Assembly (NCBI RefSeq): GCF_016595235.1
Contig: NZ_JAENHL010000007.1
Location: 310,001 to 374,000 of the forward strand
Length of the DNA stretch: 64,000 bases
Reading direction: 5' to 3'
From: Taklimakanibacter albus
GTDB taxonomy: Bacteria; Pseudomonadota; Alphaproteobacteria; Rhizobiales; Aestuariivirgaceae
Each line of letters opens with the position of its first letter. Position 1 is the first letter of the stretch. Below, piece after piece: positions 49,226 to 57,183 of this stretch. The position numbers and the translations under genes are program-made. Below the pieces are notes generated by a model. That model searched no databases and was not told the origin of the DNA. It saw only the letters and a program-made list of their open reading frames with translations.

Positions 49226-49519
49226 CTATTTGAACATCCGCTCGCCCTGCTCGTCGACGATCTGGCGACCCTTCGACAGCGACAGGTCGGCCGCCTCTTC
49301 GAGCGTCGAGAAGCGGTCGGCACGCACGAATTTGTATTCCTTCATCTGCCCATCGACTTCCTTGGAGATCGTGCCGGCGGTCTGGAACTGGCCGCCTTCC
49401 TTGTAAGGCGTGGCGCGGATGATGAAGCCCTTATGCTCGGTTTCCTTGGCCGCGGCCACCGGCCCATCGCCCGCCGCTTTATCGCCGCCAAGACCAAACA
49501 GGGATTTTAGAAAGGACAT
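49226..49519 (-). CDS. HlyU-family protein
   Basis: This is a 97-residue protein of the HlyU family, named for a Vibrio haemolysin regulator, though alphaproteobacterial members are not winged-helix HlyU. The central HKGFIIRATPYKEGGQFQTAGTI and the end RQIVDEQGERMFK are the family blocks. Residues 1-13 (MSFLKSLFGLGGD) form an amphipathic start. The ATG at 49519 opens the conserved part; longer versions lack support. Function unknown. Confidence 0.8.
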   Translation of the reverse strand: MSFLKSLFGLGGDKAAGDGPVAAAKETEHKGFIIRATPYKEGGQFQTAGTISKEVDGQMKEYKFVRADRFSTLEEAADLSLSKGRQIVDEQGERMFK

Positions 49520-49657
49520 GTCAGACCTGCGTAATTGTTTCCGATAGACTGAACCCTTGCCGCTTTGCCCGCAATAGGCTTGGCGCAGGGCATGGAACGG
49601 ACCTATCCCATTCCCGGAAGCCGCGCTAGTCTCGCCTGCCCTTGCTCGGAGTCTCTG

Positions 49658-50491
49658 ATGCGCCACGTGTTGCTCGCTTTTTTCTGTGCCCTCTTCCTGT
49701 CGGCCACGCCGCTCGCCGCGCGCGAGCAGTCGGACGCACCCGACATCGAAATCCTCGGCTTCTCGCCCGACGGCCGCTACTTTGCCTATGAGCAATATGG
49801 CTATGACATTGCGAGCGACGCGCTCGACGCCGCGATTTTCGTCATCGACCGCGAGACCAACAAGACCGTGGAGGGCTTCCCCTTCGGCTTCATCGCCGAT
49901 CTGCCCGACAACACCAACAAGCCCGATATCGACATTGAATCCTTACGGACGGAAGAAGGCGCGCCCGAGCTCGGCAAGCTCCGGAAGGTGGTGCGTGAGG
50001 AGGCAGCGGCGAAGCTTTCGGCGCTCGAGATCGGGACACAAGGCCGCCGACTTGCCGGCGTGCCGATGACGCAACGCTCGCCCGTCGACGGCAAGGACGC
50101 ACCCTTGAAGTTCGTCGTCTGGCCGACCATTCCGAGCGCCATTCCGGACCAGCAATTCGTCTATTCGATCAGCGCCAAAACCACCGACCCGCTTCCTGAT
50201 TGTGTGAACGCGGCGCCTGAGCCGCGCGATATTCCGGTGACCTTCATCATCACCGCCGAGCGCACCTTTCCCGAAACGAAGACGGTGGCAGCCAAGGAAC
50301 ACATCTATCAATGGGCGATCGCCAAGGATGATTGCCCGGCCGGATTGTGGATCAGCGACATCATCGCGCCACCCGATGCCAAGGGCGACAAACCTGTACT
50401 GCTGATCGTCTTCTTCACCGGCGCCTGGTCATCGGCCGTCGACAGCGCCCGCTATCACGCGACCTTCATCGAGATGCCGGAAGGGGAGTGA
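49658..50491 (+). CDS. exported DUF2259-type protein, intact copy
   Basis: This 277-residue protein has a signal peptide (residues 1-22, ending PLAAREQ). It contains a WD-like strand ILGFSPDGRYFAYEQYG that is typical of DUF2259 proteins. The rest is probably beta-rich. Function unknown. What is remarkable is its 3' end: bases 50224-50489 recur at 53816-54080 with about 96% identity, and a shorter, more degraded piece recurs at about 54435-54502. The intervening DNA has lower GC, so this gene end looks like a repeated insertion target. Confidence 0.8.
   Translation: MRHVLLAFFCALFLSATPLAAREQSDAPDIEILGFSPDGRYFAYEQYGYDIASDALDAAIFVIDRETNKTVEGFPFGFIADLPDNTNKPDIDIESLRTEEGAPELGKLRKVVREEAAAKLSALEIGTQGRRLAGVPMTQRSPVDGKDAPLKFVVWPTIPSAIPDQQFVYSISAKTTDPLPDCVNAAPEPRDIPVTFIITAERTFPETKTVAAKEHIYQWAIAKDDCPAGLWISDIIAPPDAKGDKPVLLIVFFTGAWSSAVDSARYHATFIEMPEGE
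50224..50489 (+). repeat. direct repeat, left copy (3' end of the DUF2259-type gene)
   Basis: Starts CGCGATATTCCGGTGACCTT and runs to the stop of the intact gene. The right copy is 53816-54080, with about ten substitutions over roughly 266 bp by eye. The pair brackets 3.3 kb of foreign-looking DNA. Confidence 0.8.
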
Positions 50492-50514
50492 ATCGGATGA
50501 CAAGAGCTCCTCTT

Positions 50515-51240
50515 CTACTGAAAAGGCTCAAAGACATTCAGTATTAAGATTTCCAGATGATGAGCTACCGTATTAGGTCCGATTTTCAGTGAATTCGGAT
50601 GACCGCAACCATTTCTCCGATCCAAGCAGTTCTTCAACTCCGCCTTTACATTCTTTCCGATTGCGGAGATTGCGGCCAATCTATCCAGAAAATCGGCCTC
50701 TTTCATCCTCCCAAAATCATCAATTGACATGGCGTCTTTCCATCTTGCATCAACTCGTCTTGCCTCCTTGTTGAAGGCAGGGGCAAACTTGGCCAAGACG
50801 GTGTTATACAGAATGTCAACAGCAGCGATCCAAGACATCACGATTGCTGAACGATGCAGCTCCAACTCGTAACACTTAATTGCCTCTTCAACAAAAGCTC
50901 GGGTATTAGGATTTTTGATTTTTGAAAGATGCGATCTCAAATTAACCGCCACATGAACCGCAGCAACACTCAGTGACGACACCCCAAGGTTTCTTAGGTG
51001 TTCTTTGCCTGCGTCTGTAATCTCCCATCCTTTGGGAGTGCGTATTGCCAAGCCTTTCGCACGCCCCAATGTTTTCGATGGGTTCCAGTGTTTTGGTAGA
51101 GCGAAGCCGGCTTCAAATGCACGCTTTCGCATATCGTTGATCTGACAGGCGGAATCGATCACCGCCAAAATCAAAAGTAACTTGTCCGTCTGCGGCAACT
51201 CCCGATGGAGCCAGCGCTTAAGATCGCCATCAGCCAGCAA
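50515..51240 (-). CDS. HEPN-motif protein with N-terminal winged-helix-like domain (island gene 4)
   Basis: This 241-residue protein is of no family I can name. Residues about 15-70 resemble a winged helix (LLLILAVIDSACQINDMRKRAF, then KGWEITDAGKEHLRNLG). The C-terminal 130 residues are helical and end LDRRNGCGHPN, with R209-x4-H214 fitting the HEPN RNase R-x4-6-H motif. The start is TTG at 51240: GGAG lies 7 nt upstream and no ATG is in frame. It overlaps gene 3 by 11 nt, so translation is coupled. GC is about 50% against 60-70% around. RNase activity is inferred only from the motif. Confidence 0.7.
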   Translation of the reverse strand: MLADGDLKRWLHRELPQTDKLLLILAVIDSACQINDMRKRAFEAGFALPKHWNPSKTLGRAKGLAIRTPKGWEITDAGKEHLRNLGVSSLSVAAVHVAVNLRSHLSKIKNPNTRAFVEEAIKCYELELHRSAIVMSWIAAVDILYNTVLAKFAPAFNKEARRVDARWKDAMSIDDFGRMKEADFLDRLAAISAIGKNVKAELKNCLDRRNGCGHPNSLKIGPNTVAHHLEILILNVFEPFQ

Positions 51241-51712
51241 GTTTCTGCTCCATAACCTGCCGCTCAGATTCCTTCATCGCGTACACGTCTTTTGAGACTT
51301 CTATTAAGACTTCCTGCTTCACCAAAGTGTCAAGATAGCTACTAAGGTTGCTGCCATAAGTAGTCTTGTAGTACCCAATGGCCTGTTTCATTTCGTCATG
51401 AATTTCTTGCCGCGTCACAGTCTGCTTCATCCTCAGCACAACGAGAGAAGCTACGCTGGCAGAGACTAGCGAGCTGCCATCTTTGACACCAAGTTTTGCT
51501 GCCACAGACTTAACCGTCATGGCCTGGGCAGGCGTCTTTGGTTTGTCCCCATTAACGTCAAGCTGATTCCCAGGAAACTCGACACTGAGATTGACCATTC
51601 CAAACTCAACGAGTTCTCTTACAATGGGTTCAATCTTGGCTTCAAAGACATCCTTCGCCCCCTCAAATTCCATCTCAATGTGCCCAATCTTCAGACCAAA
51701 ACGAACGTCCAT
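51230..51712 (-). CDS. unknown protein with C-terminal winged-helix-like domain (island gene 3)
   Basis: This 160-residue protein begins MDVRFGLKIGHIEMEFEGAKD with a strand-rich N-terminal half. It ends in a helical block (VTRQEIHDEMKQAIGYYKTTYG, then LSSYLDTLVKQEVLIEVSKDVYAM) that looks like a small winged helix. No family is recognised. GGAG lies 6 nt before the ATG at 51712. It is third of four same-strand genes; the next gene starts inside its 3' end. Codon use and GC differ from the surrounding chromosome. Confidence 0.65.
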   Translation of the reverse strand: MDVRFGLKIGHIEMEFEGAKDVFEAKIEPIVRELVEFGMVNLSVEFPGNQLDVNGDKPKTPAQAMTVKSVAAKLGVKDGSSLVSASVASLVVLRMKQTVTRQEIHDEMKQAIGYYKTTYGSNLSSYLDTLVKQEVLIEVSKDVYAMKESERQVMEQKLAG

Positions 51713-51795
51713 GCTTGCTCCGTCGCCATAGAAGGATTAATTTTTCAAACCGCACATGTAACGAGCGCAACTCTCGAAATGATACAGAGGAGCCA

Positions 51796-52353
51796 CTATG
51801 GGCTTTTTGCGAGTTCCTTGATCATGCGCGCTGCCCTAGTTAGGCCAGGCGCGGTTAACGTCCAGCCCTTATCTTTTGCGCCTGTAAACTCGTTTCCCTT
51901 GTTCTTCAGATAGGTCGCATGATTTGTGTTGTCGTAGCAACCAGAAACCTCGCACAGCTTTCTAGCAAGTTGATCTTCAAATGAGGGAGCCCCTGTTGCA
52001 AGGAACTGTCCCAATCCCGTGAGAATGTAGGCACTAAGCGTCTGCTCCTTGCGGTTTTTTCCTGGCAAACGAGGCGCTATCATCTCAAAGCCGTCCGCGG
52101 TCAGATGAAACACTTGTTGCAGTTCCTCCGGCAAGACATCGTTTTGCCTCATCCACATCTGAGTGCGAGACGGCAGGTTGGTAGCGCTTGCACCTTGATT
52201 GTCGGAATCCACAGCCGGCGCGACCTCTAGCTGCTGTGTTTCGCCCAACAACACCATAGCCGCGCGTATAGCTCGCAAGCGATCTTCCGAGGAAAGCGGC
52301 TCCAAAACCTCAACGATCCTAGTCATTGCTTCAACCGGCACACCATTTGCCAT
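51796..52353 (-). CDS. unknown protein with C-terminal winged-helix-like domain (island gene 2)
   Basis: This is a 185-residue protein. The first 40 residues are helical (VEAMTRIVEVLEPLSSEDRLRAIRAAMVLLGE, a pattern seen in oligomerisation helices) and are followed by a polar linker. The C-terminal 110 residues (QTLSAYILTGLGQFLATGAPSFED to KGWTLTAPGLTRAARMIKEL) share the layout helix, helix, lysine-rich wing, W-x-L-T-x2-G with island gene 1. GGAGAGAAGAAA precedes the ATG. It is second in the operon, 35 nt after gene 1. Function unknown. Confidence 0.65.
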   Translation of the reverse strand: MANGVPVEAMTRIVEVLEPLSSEDRLRAIRAAMVLLGETQQLEVAPAVDSDNQGASATNLPSRTQMWMRQNDVLPEELQQVFHLTADGFEMIAPRLPGKNRKEQTLSAYILTGLGQFLATGAPSFEDQLARKLCEVSGCYDNTNHATYLKNKGNEFTGAKDKGWTLTAPGLTRAARMIKELAKSP

Positions 52354-52388
52354 TTTCTTCTCTCCATATTTGGATCGGAACGTCCGAT

Positions 52389-52784
52389 CTAGACCATTCC
52401 TTCCATCACAAAGCGCTCACCAGTCGACGTGAGCTGCCAAGCCTTCTTTGCATCTTTCTTGCTCGACGCCTCCATCAGGAATCCGCGCGCTACATTCTTG
52501 TTAACGGCATCGTTCAAATTCTTAGGAAGCCTCTCTCGAGCCGAGCGAAATGCAGCTTCCAGATCAGAGACGTTAAACACGTCCACCCCTTCCTGATGCT
52601 CAAGGAAAAATGCTAGCGCGACCACTTTTTGCACTTCAGACTTAGGATTCTTTGTCAGCAAAAACTCCTTGGCCGACAGCTTTCTGGCTCGTGGAGTTTC
52701 CACATCATCGCCTCCTAGAATCCGCTCGAGTCTTTCGATTCGCTCCTCGAGCTTTCTCAGCCTTTCCGCCAGATCATCAATCAT
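52389..52784 (-). CDS. coiled-coil plus winged-helix-like protein (island gene 1)
   Basis: This 131-residue protein starts with a short coiled coil (DDLAERLRKLEERIERLERIL). A domain follows reading SEVQKVVALAFFLEHQEGVDVFNVSDLEAAFRSARERLPKNLNDAVNKN and ending KKAWQLTSTGERFVMEG, a convincing winged helix with lysine-rich wing. The ATG at 52784 is chosen because GGAG lies 6 nt upstream; ATG 52796 has no ribosome site. It is the first gene of the four-gene island operon, with a promoter candidate and an ATAT motif array just upstream, so it may also be the regulator. Confidence 0.7.
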   Translation of the reverse strand: MIDDLAERLRKLEERIERLERILGGDDVETPRARKLSAKEFLLTKNPKSEVQKVVALAFFLEHQEGVDVFNVSDLEAAFRSARERLPKNLNDAVNKNVARGFLMEASSKKDAKKAWQLTSTGERFVMEGMV

Positions 52785-52838
52785 TTCAAACTCCATACTG
52801 ACAAATAGATACACCACACGTTCACTAATTTTGATAAT

Positions 52839-52867
52839 CATATAATAAGATGCAGCCAGCTACGCAA
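52839..52867 (-). promoter_or_regulatory. candidate promoter of the island operon
   Basis: On the minus strand TTGCGT (52867-52862), 17 nt, then TATATG (52844-52839), about 55 nt before the gene 1 start. An alternative -10 (TATTAT) lies 3 nt further upstream. The match is fair, not strong. Confidence 0.35.
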
Positions 52868-52870
52868 GGG

Positions 52871-52918
52871 AATATTCGACAATATATGCAAGAATATTGG
52901 ATATTGCACGAAATATCG
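52871..52918. promoter_or_regulatory. array of five ATAT cores upstream of the island promoter
   Basis: Within 48 bp there are five ATAT cores at spacings of 10, 12, 7 and 12 bp, forming inverted pairs such as CAATAT-N8-ATATTG and GATATT-GCACGA-AATATC. It directly abuts the candidate -35. The layout suggests a cooperative operator, possibly for the winged-helix proteins of the operon. Confidence 0.35.
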
Positions 52919-53072
52919 CCGCTCTCTTGCCAGATTTCTTGGTACACATTGTTTATCCACGCTATATAAAAGCTATCATTATCATACATCCAGTATGTCA
53001 TTGTTTTAGAAAAGGAAAAAATGATTTTTACAGATAATCTGTACGTTTTTCGATGTTTGATAATTTTTTTGA

Positions 53073-53210
53073 CCCTCTTGGCGAGCGTTTAGTTGATGCT
53101 AATTTAGGTCGAATCAGGACGCCATGCGGAGAACTGAACCTCCCGGATGGGCACGCCAAGCGCAGATGTGGATGACCCAAGAGAAGACGCCAAGCGCCCG
53201 GCCAAGAGGG
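53073..53210. repeat. 138-bp segment with 10-bp terminal inverted repeats
   Basis: CCCTCTTGGC (53073-53082) and GCCAAGAGGG (53201-53210) are exact complements. The segment could be a remnant of a small mobile element; no target duplication is evident. Confidence 0.35.
53125..53159. repeat. 35-bp direct repeat, copy 1
   Basis: TGCGGAGAACTGAACCTCCC... ending GCACGCCAA; copy 2 is at 53591-53625 with 2 or 3 substitutions. Confidence 0.6.
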
Positions 53211-53590
53211 CTGAACTCATAATATATTGATTTTATAAGAAAATTTTAGAGCCGAAGGCGGAATTAGGAACCACGCAGTTTGCCCGCATTGGTCTATGAC
53301 GATGTCGCCGTTCACTAACTGCCATAGAATTTCATCGCTACCGTCGTTGAGAAAATATAACTCCCGTGGAGCGCGGCCACGCGGCGAATCGCACTCTGGG
53401 CACGCAAGAAAAGCTACTTATCTAGCCCACGCAAACGCAGAATCCGTTTGAGTAAAAATTAATCTCATAAAAACAACATATTATAGAGACAGCGCCTACT
53501 AATAATGTGAGATGGAGTATGAATTCTAATTTCTGTGCCGCAAGAATCAGCCAAAAAGAAGATGCTAAGTTACAGTAATACAATTCCTCG

Positions 53591-53625
53591 TGCGGAGAAC
53601 TGAACCTCCCGGGTGGGCATGCCAA
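53591..53625. repeat. 35-bp direct repeat, copy 2
   Basis: TGCGGAGAACTGAACCTCCC... ending GCATGCCAA, 466 bp from copy 1. Confidence 0.6.
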
Positions 53626-53815
53626 ATGCAGTAATGGCAACAGCTAATCGCGATAGCTGCACCTCGCCCCGCCCAATCCCTAGCTGGACCAGTGAACATG
53701 AGGTAATTTGCCAAAAAACTCTGGAGCTTTGCTACGATCAGCGTTCGCTTGCCAATGAGGCGGGCTGGCCGACTTTTAGCGCGTGAAAAATGCATAAAAT
53801 GCTAAGTCACCCACT

Positions 53816-54082
53816 CGCGATATTCCGGTGACCTTCACCATCACGGCCGAGCGCACCTTTCCCGAAACGAAGACGGTGGCGCTTAACGAACACATCTATC
53901 AATGGGCGATCGCCAAGGATGATTGCCCGGCCGGATTGTGGATCAGCGACATCATCGCACCACCCGATGCCAAGGGCGACAAACCTGTACTGCTGATCGT
54001 CCTCTTCACCGGCGCCTGGTCATCGGCCGTCGACAGCGCCCGCTATCACGCGACCTTCATCGAGATGCCGGAGGGGGAGTGA
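53816..54082 (+). pseudogene. 3'-terminal remnant of the DUF2259-type gene (second copy)
   Basis: This encodes the last 84 or so residues of the protein at 49658-50491 (DIPVTFTITAERTFPETKT to FIEMPEGE), with only a few substitutions such as AAKEHIYQW to ALNEHIYQW. It lacks the signal peptide and the first two thirds. The break at the 5' side is abrupt: AT-rich foreign sequence runs directly into the repeat at about 53816. A GTG at 53828 could in principle start a short frame, but no ribosome site is seen. It is best read as the right-hand boundary left by an insertion. Confidence 0.8.
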
Positions 54083-54108
54083 AGCAACGGCGCGTCCAGT
54101 AGTCCGGA

Positions 54109-54378
54109 CTACTTGTCCTCACCCGAGGGGTTGATCTTGTCGGTCGGCTGGCCGGACGCCGTGGCCTCCGCCTTCTCCATGGCGAGGCGCAAGCTGTTCG
54201 GGCGCATGTCAGTCCAGTTGCTCTCGATGAAGTCGAGGCATGCCCGGCGACCATCCGCGGGGTGAACGACCCGCCACCCGGCGGGCACGTCGATATGAGA
54301 CGGCCAGAGCGAGTACTGCTCCTCCTCGTTCGGCAGGACGAGAAACGTTCCACTCTCATCGTCGAAGGGATTGGTCAT
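54109..54378 (-). CDS. MbtH-like protein (orphan)
   Basis: This 89-residue MbtH-family protein is a small partner that activates adenylation domains of non-ribosomal peptide synthetases. The signature is complete: [13 protein letters not shown] at the start, SLWP (W25), GWRVVH (W35) and NWTDMRP (W55), which are the three conserved tryptophans. GC is about 60%, like the host. No NRPS gene is in the window. It lies between the second and third remnants of the DUF2259-type gene end, so it may have arrived in a separate insertion event or been trapped there. Confidence 0.92.
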
Positions 54379-54434
54379 GGACTGCTCTTTCGCATTCTTT
54401 TTGCTCCGATGAAGTTCAGTTGTCCAGGAAGCCG

Positions 54435-54502
54435 GTCCTGGTCATCGGTGGTCGACATCTCCCGCTATCGCGCGACTTTCATCGATATACCGAAGGAGGA
54501 AC
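54435..54502 (+). pseudogene. third, degraded copy of the DUF2259-type gene end
   Basis: The stretch CCTGGTCATCGG...GTCGACA...CCCGCTATC...GCGAC.TTCATCGA aligns to bases about 50424-50488 of the intact gene with roughly 85% identity by eye. The frame is no longer maintained with the rest of the gene. Being more diverged than copy 2, it is probably the older event. Confidence 0.65.
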
Positions 54503-54530
54503 AGCCACACTCTCCCAGAGCCAATAGTTG

Positions 54531-55082
54531 TCAGATTTCGTCGTTCCGCGGCCTCAACAATTCTCGCATCCGTGGAAATATCTTCATGCGATTCCAATCA
54601 TCACTCATCAGTTCAAGATCGAACTCTCGTGTCAAAATCTCGAATGTCGAGTCATGAAATCCGAAGATCAAATGGCGCAAGTTATCGAACATCTCCTTTG
54701 TATGCGCGGGATGCACGCTGTTCATGCACTCCATTCGCGCGATCCAACTGGATTTGCCTACCTCGTAGATTCCGAATGAACGAAAGCCACGGGATGCCAG
54801 AGGATGGCCGTGATCGGCCTCCTCATTGGGATAGCCGAACATATGCGAATGCACGCCACGGAAGCGGAAAATTGCATAGACATCAAGACCGCCTATCCTG
54901 TCGGAATGGTTATAGGCCTTTGCCAGTTCGGCTTCGGTCGGGTCCTCGACGTAGTAGGACAACACCACCTTGCGCTCGTCAGCGAGCATCAGTGGATCTG
55001 GAGCTCCCGGCGTAATCCTGGGAAGCCCCTCGATTTCGGCGACCGTATCGTCCTTGACGGAGTAAATCGTTGCCCCCAACAA
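54531..55082 (-). CDS. unknown protein, low GC, start uncertain
   Basis: This is an up to 183-residue frame with a coding-like composition (VVLSYYVEDPTEAELAKAYN, WIARMECMNSVHPAHTKEMFDNLRHLIFGFHDSTFEIL). No family is recognised. GC is about 40% in its second half, unlike the neighbours. The only start that keeps the whole frame is TTG at 55082, which lies in the T run of the rpoD terminator and has no ribosome site; ATG at about 54993 is an alternative. It may have lost its 5' end in the rearrangements of this region. Confidence 0.5.
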   Translation of the reverse strand: MLGATIYSVKDDTVAEIEGLPRITPGAPDPLMLADERKVVLSYYVEDPTEAELAKAYNHSDRIGGLDVYAIFRFRGVHSHMFGYPNEEADHGHPLASRGFRSFGIYEVGKSSWIARMECMNSVHPAHTKEMFDNLRHLIFGFHDSTFEILTREFDLELMSDDWNRMKIFPRMRELLRPRNDEI

Positions 55083-55108
55083 AAAAGGCCGGCTTTCGCC
55101 GGCCTTTT
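55081..55108 (-). terminator. intrinsic terminator of rpoD
   Basis: On the minus strand AAAA-GGCCGGC-GAAA-GCCGGCC-TTTTTT, a perfect 7-bp GC stem with a GAAA tetraloop and a T tract, starting 5 nt after the rpoD stop. Confidence 0.9.
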
Positions 55109-55113
55109 GGTGA

Positions 55114-57183
<2,070 letters not shown>

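Follow-up and report, generated by a model that had tools for sequence, protein, structure and literature searches.

What is the system encoded by a low-GC operon of four genes in the GC-rich chromosome of Taklimakanibacter albus? The operon lies in a stretch of 64,000 nucleotides (positions 310,001 to 374,000 of contig NZ_JAENHL010000007.1; hereafter the window), and a preliminary description, made from the letters of this stretch, had read it as a DNA- or RNA-sensing complex of small winged-helix-like proteins with a toxic HEPN ribonuclease (RNase) as the effector. The computational analysis reported here leads us to a related answer, which we hold with moderate confidence, i.e., that the operon is probably a mobile accessory module, with gene 4 acting as a HEPN-type RNase effector, gene 3 as its regular winged-helix partner, and genes 2 and 1 as additional subunits of one complex. 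We favor this explanation because of the fold matches and the conserved site of gene 4, its link to the defense protein PD-T7-3, the pairing of genes 3 and 4 across many loci, the patchy presence of the operon as an insertion, and the defense genes traced in the neighborhood of its relatives. As judged from these data, the module looks defense-like and mobile, and an anti-virus or toxin role is predicted for it. The four genes are as follows.

52389-52784, minus strand: gene 1, an open reading frame of 131 amino acids counted from the ATG at 52784 (upstream, the frame stays open as far as 52841), with a heptad-like N-terminal helix at about residues 1-25 (by eye) and a winged-helix block at about residues 37-128
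51796-52353, minus strand: gene 2, 185 amino acids, with an N-terminal helical-looking block that includes an LEPL motif, and a possible C-terminal winged helix
51230-51712, minus strand: gene 3 ("A"), 160 amino acids, with a beta-beta-alpha domain at residues 2-41 and a winged helix at residues 74-160
50515-51240, minus strand: gene 4 ("B"), 241 amino acids, TTG start, with a winged helix at residues 13-88 and a HEPN domain at residues 107-241 that includes E119, R209, N210 and H214

As the preliminary description had stated, the four genes share one strand and GGAG-type ribosome sites, read from the sequence, precede all four starts (GGAGTTTGAAATG, GGAGAGAAGAAAATG, GGAGCAAGCATG and GGAGCAGAAACTTG). 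Its term "coupled operon" applies strictly only to genes 3 and 4, which overlap by 11 nt, as gaps of 35 nt and 83 nt separate genes 1 and 2 and genes 2 and 3, respectively. The low-GC island was reproduced, with guanine plus cytosine (GC) contents of 0.534, 0.491, 0.484 and 0.482 in the four 1-kb intervals across 50001-54000 (i.e., about 0.48-0.53), as compared to 0.566 at 54001-55000 and a chromosomal background of 0.595-0.684 in all remaining 1-kb intervals of the window. The motif W-x-L/I-T-x2-G was found in each of the three genes for which it had been described (WQLTSTG in gene 1, WTLTAPG in gene 2 and WEITDAG in gene 4), and the coiled-coil-like start of gene 1 can be read by eye from its heptads. 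None of the four genes had been recognized initially, and library searches gave the same picture: Pfam and NCBIfam returned nothing above their curated cut-offs for genes 1-4; PADLOC gave only a partial PD-T7-3 match for gene 4; and PHROGs placed gene 4 with a family of unknown function (phrog_27609, 1.7e-5), all other PHROGs matches for genes 1-4 being above 0.03. A fold search of BFVD with gene 4 returned nothing with an E value under 0.1. We recognized no paper describing the gene 3-gene 4 pair or the operon, an absence that is weak evidence as most of the subscription literature lay outside the search.

Gene 4 carries a HEPN fold and is paired with a winged-helix gene

The structural model of gene 4 (predicted local distance difference test, pLDDT, of 92.8) consists of a winged helix at residues 13-88 and a HEPN fold at residues 107-241, and HEPN toxins such as HepT are among its top fold matches. 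Structure prediction, which had been proposed as a check on gene 4, thus bore out the HEPN fold, and the R209-x4-H214 motif noticed in the helical C-terminal domain (in full, R209-N-G-C-G-H214) belongs to a conserved R/N/H site. Residues F116, E119, C123, R130, W137, R209, N210, P215 and N235 are identical in 34 of 34 aligned rows of gene-4 relatives, H214 is kept in 33 of these 34, and R[ND]x3H is found in 44 of the 45 gene-4 loci. According to the definition given in PMC3710099, HEPN domains have R-x4-6-H with a polar residue after the R, and a second, acidic residue upstream, typically within Ex3[KR]. Gene 4 has the helical fold and R-x4-6-H with a polar residue after the R; an upstream acidic residue is also present (E119, in 34 of 34 rows), but the residue four positions on is the invariant C123, and the Ex3[KR] spacing is not kept. 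A further mark of the HEPN superfamily is metal-independent RNase activity.

By sequence, the HEPN domain of gene 4 is linked to PD-T7-3, the profile of which matches 21 of the 34 gene-4 family members, and the family also matches the Dandelion HEPN domain in PDB (E 3e-4). The Csx20 HEPN model and the Csx1/Csm6 HEPN model each match 1 of the 34 members, while DUF4145 is found weakly in eight and HEPN_RiboL-PSP weakly in one. A full-length protein of PD-T7-3 (PADLOC PDLC04108) is of the same family as Dandelion (PDB 9wx2/9wxf/9wwz). PD-T7-3 is described as having protected E. coli from T-even phages (PMC9519451) and appears in one table under Pfam HEPN PF18735 (PMC10952713). PMC10799925 describes ORF376 as similar in structure to PD-T7-3, and BxaP as carrying DUF4145, a predicted HEPN domain; the passages concerned suggest that ORF376 and BxaP are the same protein.

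Although its HEPN domain is of the same sequence group, gene 4 is a related domain and not a member of PD-T7-3/Dandelion, because size and domain order differ and the match is short. PD-T7-3/Dandelion is a single protein of about 430-460 amino acids with an N-terminal HEPN domain and a long C-terminal part, whereas gene 4 encodes 241 amino acids, with the winged helix first and the HEPN domain C-terminal, and has a conserved partner gene; the partial match of the window protein to the PADLOC model (3.9e-6, residues 101-145) covers only positions 6-51 of its 432. As for the Csm6/Csx1 HEPN RNases, no CARF domain appeared for the window protein in the Pfam or PADLOC results. As a separate observation, a full-length PD-T7-3/Dandelion relative adjoins a type I restriction enzyme gene at another locus (L093, 3109-7565).

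The model of gene 3 combines a beta-beta-alpha domain with a winged helix, which in a fold search resembled those of ORC, linker histone, MukF/MukE and PadR. A gene-3 relative is located directly upstream of the gene-4 relative in 41 of the 45 loci, which come from Proteobacteria, Bacteroidota and others; the same pairing was found in 21 of 25 loci left out of model building, and in 25 of the 45 loci the frames of the pair share a 4-nt overlap. The conserved unit is the gene 3-gene 4 pair, with gene 2 added in some loci. Of the four-gene module proposed initially, therefore, it is this pair that recurs, with clear defense neighbors at three loci, while the full set was seen in this genome only. 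Weak PADLOC matches of gene 3 were obtained to DpdH (0.0025), Csx21 (0.0064) and HTH_IX (0.013). Sequence matches of the gene-3 family in PDB were distrusted, i.e., a designer PPR protein (6e-4, with no stretch passing alone), a surface protein (0.18) and a penicillinase repressor (0.39).

Genes 1 and 2 and their relatives in haloarchaea and a virus

At least four loci (L028, L030, L060 and L051) have a gene-2-like gene immediately upstream of gene 3, a lower bound as part of the 45 loci was screened for gene-2 relatives. At a further locus (L053), gene 3 is replaced by one gene that starts like gene 2 and ends like gene 3 (E 2e-27 for the likeness to gene 3).

The claim that all four proteins share a winged-helix block stood for genes 3 and 4, by model, and for gene 1, by profile only; for gene 2 the evidence is indirect, coming from relatives and not from the window protein taken alone. 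When the four window proteins are searched with the gene-3-family profile, gene 1 is recovered with E values of 6e-10 to 1e-9. Comparison of family profiles (hhalign) gave 96.5% for genes 1 and 3, 92.5% for genes 1 and 4, 96.2% for genes 2 and 3, and 94.9% for genes 3 and 4. The column-shuffle runs, which have values of their own (96.7, 86.7, 93.4 and 76.5% for these same four pairs, 55.2% for genes 1 and 2, and 0.3% for genes 2 and 4), showed that 0 of 60 shuffled controls reach the real score for any pair but genes 2 and 4, for which 4 of 60 shuffles were as good. As the gene-2 family alignment included the gene-3-like L053 gene, its comparisons are partly circular; without L053, the pair of genes 2 and 3 gave 91.4% (0 of 40 shuffles as good), while the values for genes 1 and 2 and for genes 2 and 4 stand with L053 included. 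With window gene 2 alone there was no match to the gene-3 profile, 34 of 40 shuffles scoring as well; the relatives of gene 2 match that profile at 96%, and window gene 2 matches these relatives at 85.5%. Overall, the shared winged-helix block is solid in genes 1, 3 and 4, and in gene 2 its presence is suggested indirectly, through the relatives. PspB matches of gene 1 were rejected (they span residues 2-34 only and are below curated cut-offs).

Among 150 related genomes, genes 1 and 2 were found in their own genome only. Genes 2 and 3 had no match in plasmid records, and gene 1 had none in phage records or viral contigs; bacterial genomes at large were not searched with gene 1. Relatives of gene 1 were found in two haloarchaeal plasmids (E 3e-8 and 1e-4), where the relative is the second of four overlapping genes, adjoining a HerA/DUF87 ATPase gene.

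L097, 4523-6496: haloarchaeal operon of four overlapping genes beside DUF87/HerA
L098, 4493-6668: haloarchaeal operon of four overlapping genes beside DUF87/HerA

The first haloarchaeal gene matches TrmB, a helix-turn-helix signal, and the fourth AAA_assoc_C, both above the Pfam cut-off, the third and fourth show weak helix-turn-helix matches, and no gene in these operons was recognized as HEPN. A gene-4 relative with 62% identity is present on a viral contig (L071, 3896-5723), where a different partner gene takes the place of gene 3 and the preceding genes are, by eye, tail-type genes and a DNA methylase. A comparison places this viral partner in one family with the gene that comes first in the haloarchaeal operon (94.3%, with none of 60 shuffles scoring as well); the third haloarchaeal gene did not match the viral partner and reached 36% against the first haloarchaeal gene. 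Because gene-1 relatives occur in the haloarchaeal operons and the phage partner is in the family of their first gene, we tentatively suggest, as a possibility we would not rate highly, that small winged-helix subunits may be a toolkit recombined across bacteria, phages and haloarchaea, each complex having a different output. In bacteria, this output might be a HEPN RNase, together with gene 3 or the phage partner, and in haloarchaea the HerA/DUF87 ATPase. If so, no bacterial form seen would be more elaborate than the window operon, and the exchange of one subunit family between the phage copy and the haloarchaeal operon could show how such complexes evolve.

Insertion between gene X and rpoD

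The operon is a horizontally acquired insertion, as shown by its absence from a sister genome and by the 268-bp flanking copy of the end of the preceding gene (gene X). The flanking features are as follows; the rpoD label of the next chromosomal gene was read by eye.

49565-50491: gene X, the open reading frame preceding the insert
50225-50492, plus strand: 268-bp repeat, copy 1, the 3' end of gene X
52842-53815: region upstream of the operon, about 48% GC, containing a 41-nt direct repeat and no RNA family above the gathering score
53816-54083, plus strand: 268-bp repeat, copy 2 (displaced gene X end), 96% identical to copy 1
54109-54378: orphan mbtH gene (Pfam), beyond the insert

In the sister genome, which is of the same genus (L024), gene X is followed directly by the next chromosomal gene and the insert is absent. 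Over 265 bp, the displaced copy shares 98.5% identity with the gene X end of this sister genome, and because of this resemblance the incoming copy may be the one that now terminates gene X. None of the four other genomes of the genus, three of which have gene X, contains gene 4. Besides the four genes, the insert (50493-53815) has no open reading frame above 96 amino acids in the list of reading frames, and therefore no room for an integrase; that the insertion occurred by recombination through gene X ends is a guess.

The X-rpoD interval has gathered cargo more than once, as it also contains the mbtH gene, pieces of rpoD and gene X, and a gene of 183 amino acids. Specifically, a 17-nt fragment of the rpoD end at 54416-54432 is followed by a third gene X end piece (64 nt, 84% identical) at 54437-54500, and the 183-amino-acid gene, which is also beyond mbtH, consists of DNA common to another genome of the genus. 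We observed, in addition, that the cargo hotspot at 50492-55113 has the four-gene operon, the orphan mbtH gene and the 183-amino-acid gene separated by gene X end copies or pieces. In another genome of the genus (L025, 4926-5233), the X-rpoD interval holds about 300 bp in which a long but imperfect inverted repeat seems to be visible by eye; this may be a small mobile element.

AbiF-type HEPN systems have an adjacent structured partner RNA. Rfam searches over 49500-55200 gave four matches, every one below the gathering score. The 41-nt direct repeat upstream of the operon occurs as copies at 53125-53165 and 53591-53631 (90% identical), and RNA folding of the stretches around it was no better than in shuffles. 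A scan for promoters and terminators had a yield no higher than in shuffled sequence, and a genome search found no second copy of the upstream region elsewhere in the genome.

Spread, rival explanations and proposed mode of action

A search of bacterial genome contigs with the gene-4 alignment identified 44 loci, and a search with the single gene 4 as the query identified none. Within the class, the gene-4 profile matched 12 of 385 genomes (own genome included); in five of these 12 the match is confined to the HEPN part, and one of the remainder contains an internal stop. Among the 150 relatives, six match gene 4, own genome included, and none of the six is one of the four other genomes of the genus. 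Phage records gave no match to gene 4, and eight plasmid records gave partial matches, none covering 80%. In a tree of 34 gene-4 proteins, the window row falls in a supported set of seven (99/97) with rows labeled Proteobacteria, Alpha-/Gammaproteobacteria, Methyloligella, Brevundimonas and viral contig; the nearest rows are alpha- and gammaproteobacterial metagenome-assembled genomes and the viral contig. Next to join this set are a Betaproteobacteria row and a possibly misbinned metagenome-assembled genome labeled Euryarchaeota.

Defense neighbors were traced at three loci, i.e., a restriction enzyme and methyltransferase in L029, a TIR-NLR in L061 and a Fic protein in L030. The PADLOC scan covered 90 neighbors (87 of 173, within size and distance limits, and three added by hand) with no control set, and hence no enrichment is claimed; other matches among these neighbors were MzaA, PD-Lambda-5_B and mad3, the origins of which were left untraced. 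On plasmid pLM19O1, a pair of the gene 3-gene 4 type is located about 2 kb from a VapC-type toxin-antitoxin pair.

The nearest rival to an RNase effector within a winged-helix complex is a plain type II-like toxin-antitoxin pair, in which gene 4 would be the HEPN toxin and gene 3 both its antitoxin and an autorepressor, with genes 1 and 2 as extra regulators, and which would serve to maintain the mobile segment rather than to sense phages. The placement of a small partner first and a putative toxin second, often with a 4-nt overlap, agrees with this, as do the HepT-like HEPN toxins among the top fold matches of gene 4 and the VapC-type neighbor on pLM19O1. We nevertheless consider it the less likely explanation, because the putative toxin itself carries a winged helix of its partner's family, up to two further genes are added, and the phage copy has a different partner. 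HEPN toxins are known to have a nucleotidyltransferase as their antitoxin, as in MNT-HEPN (MntA-HepT), whereas the model of gene 3 shows a beta-beta-alpha domain followed by a winged helix; a Pfam search of genes 1-4, which did not extend to the other operons, revealed no nucleotidyltransferase.

A nucleoid or transcription-regulating complex, with HEPN as a dimerization or ligand domain and not an enzyme, might be suspected from the fact that no fewer than three of the four genes have winged-helix blocks, from the resemblance of gene 3 to ORC, linker histone, MukF/MukE and PadR, and from the haloarchaeal gene-1 relatives that sit without a recognized HEPN gene. This appears improbable, as R, N and H are conserved across divergent gene-4 members, and the patchy presence within the class and the low GC content fit an accessory conflict gene better. 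Even further from probable is a chance cluster, i.e., unrelated cargo genes that share one insert: the insert does sit in a stack of unrelated cargoes (mbtH and the 183-amino-acid gene) and the full set is confined to this genome, but all frames are intact with ribosome sites, the order gene 2-gene 3-gene 4 recurs in L028, L030, L051 and L060, and the gene 3-gene 4 pair is kept in nearly all loci. For genes 2-4, a chance association is largely refuted.

If gene 4 is indeed the RNase effector of a mobile winged-helix module, the winged-helix subunits would assemble via each other and on nucleic acid, and would hold the HEPN dimer of gene 4 inactive. A phage or other mobile element might then alter the nucleic acid or strip a subunit, which would release or activate HEPN, and RNA cleavage by gene 4 would stop growth or phage production; swapping of subunits (gene 2, gene 1 or the phage partner) would tune what is sensed. 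Such a module would add a HEPN system with several subunits and winged-helix control, one that occurs across a range of Proteobacteria and Bacteroidota and is nearly invisible to PADLOC (the window gives weak partial matches only), and would represent a clean case of an RNase effector leashed by DNA-binding-type subunits.

Some relatives and variants touch on PADLOC candidate systems. The window genes match neither PDC-S35 nor PDC-M34A at E values up to 1; PDC-S35, on which a literature search found no paper, is matched by the gene-4 relative of L034 (2e-7, residues 11-111), and PDC-M34A by the partner of the HEPN-only gene of L090 (2e-8, residues 211-242 of 247). For the L090/L091 partner, a suspected similarity to DUF5343 was unconfirmed, with no Pfam family for L090 and no paper found. 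Two loci (L090, 4183-5449, and L091, 3705-4976) represent a two-gene variant, in which a short HEPN-like protein (RNQCAHP) follows a larger partner, and at L034 (4187-6441) a gene with, by eye, a P-loop-like motif adjoins the gene-4 relative.

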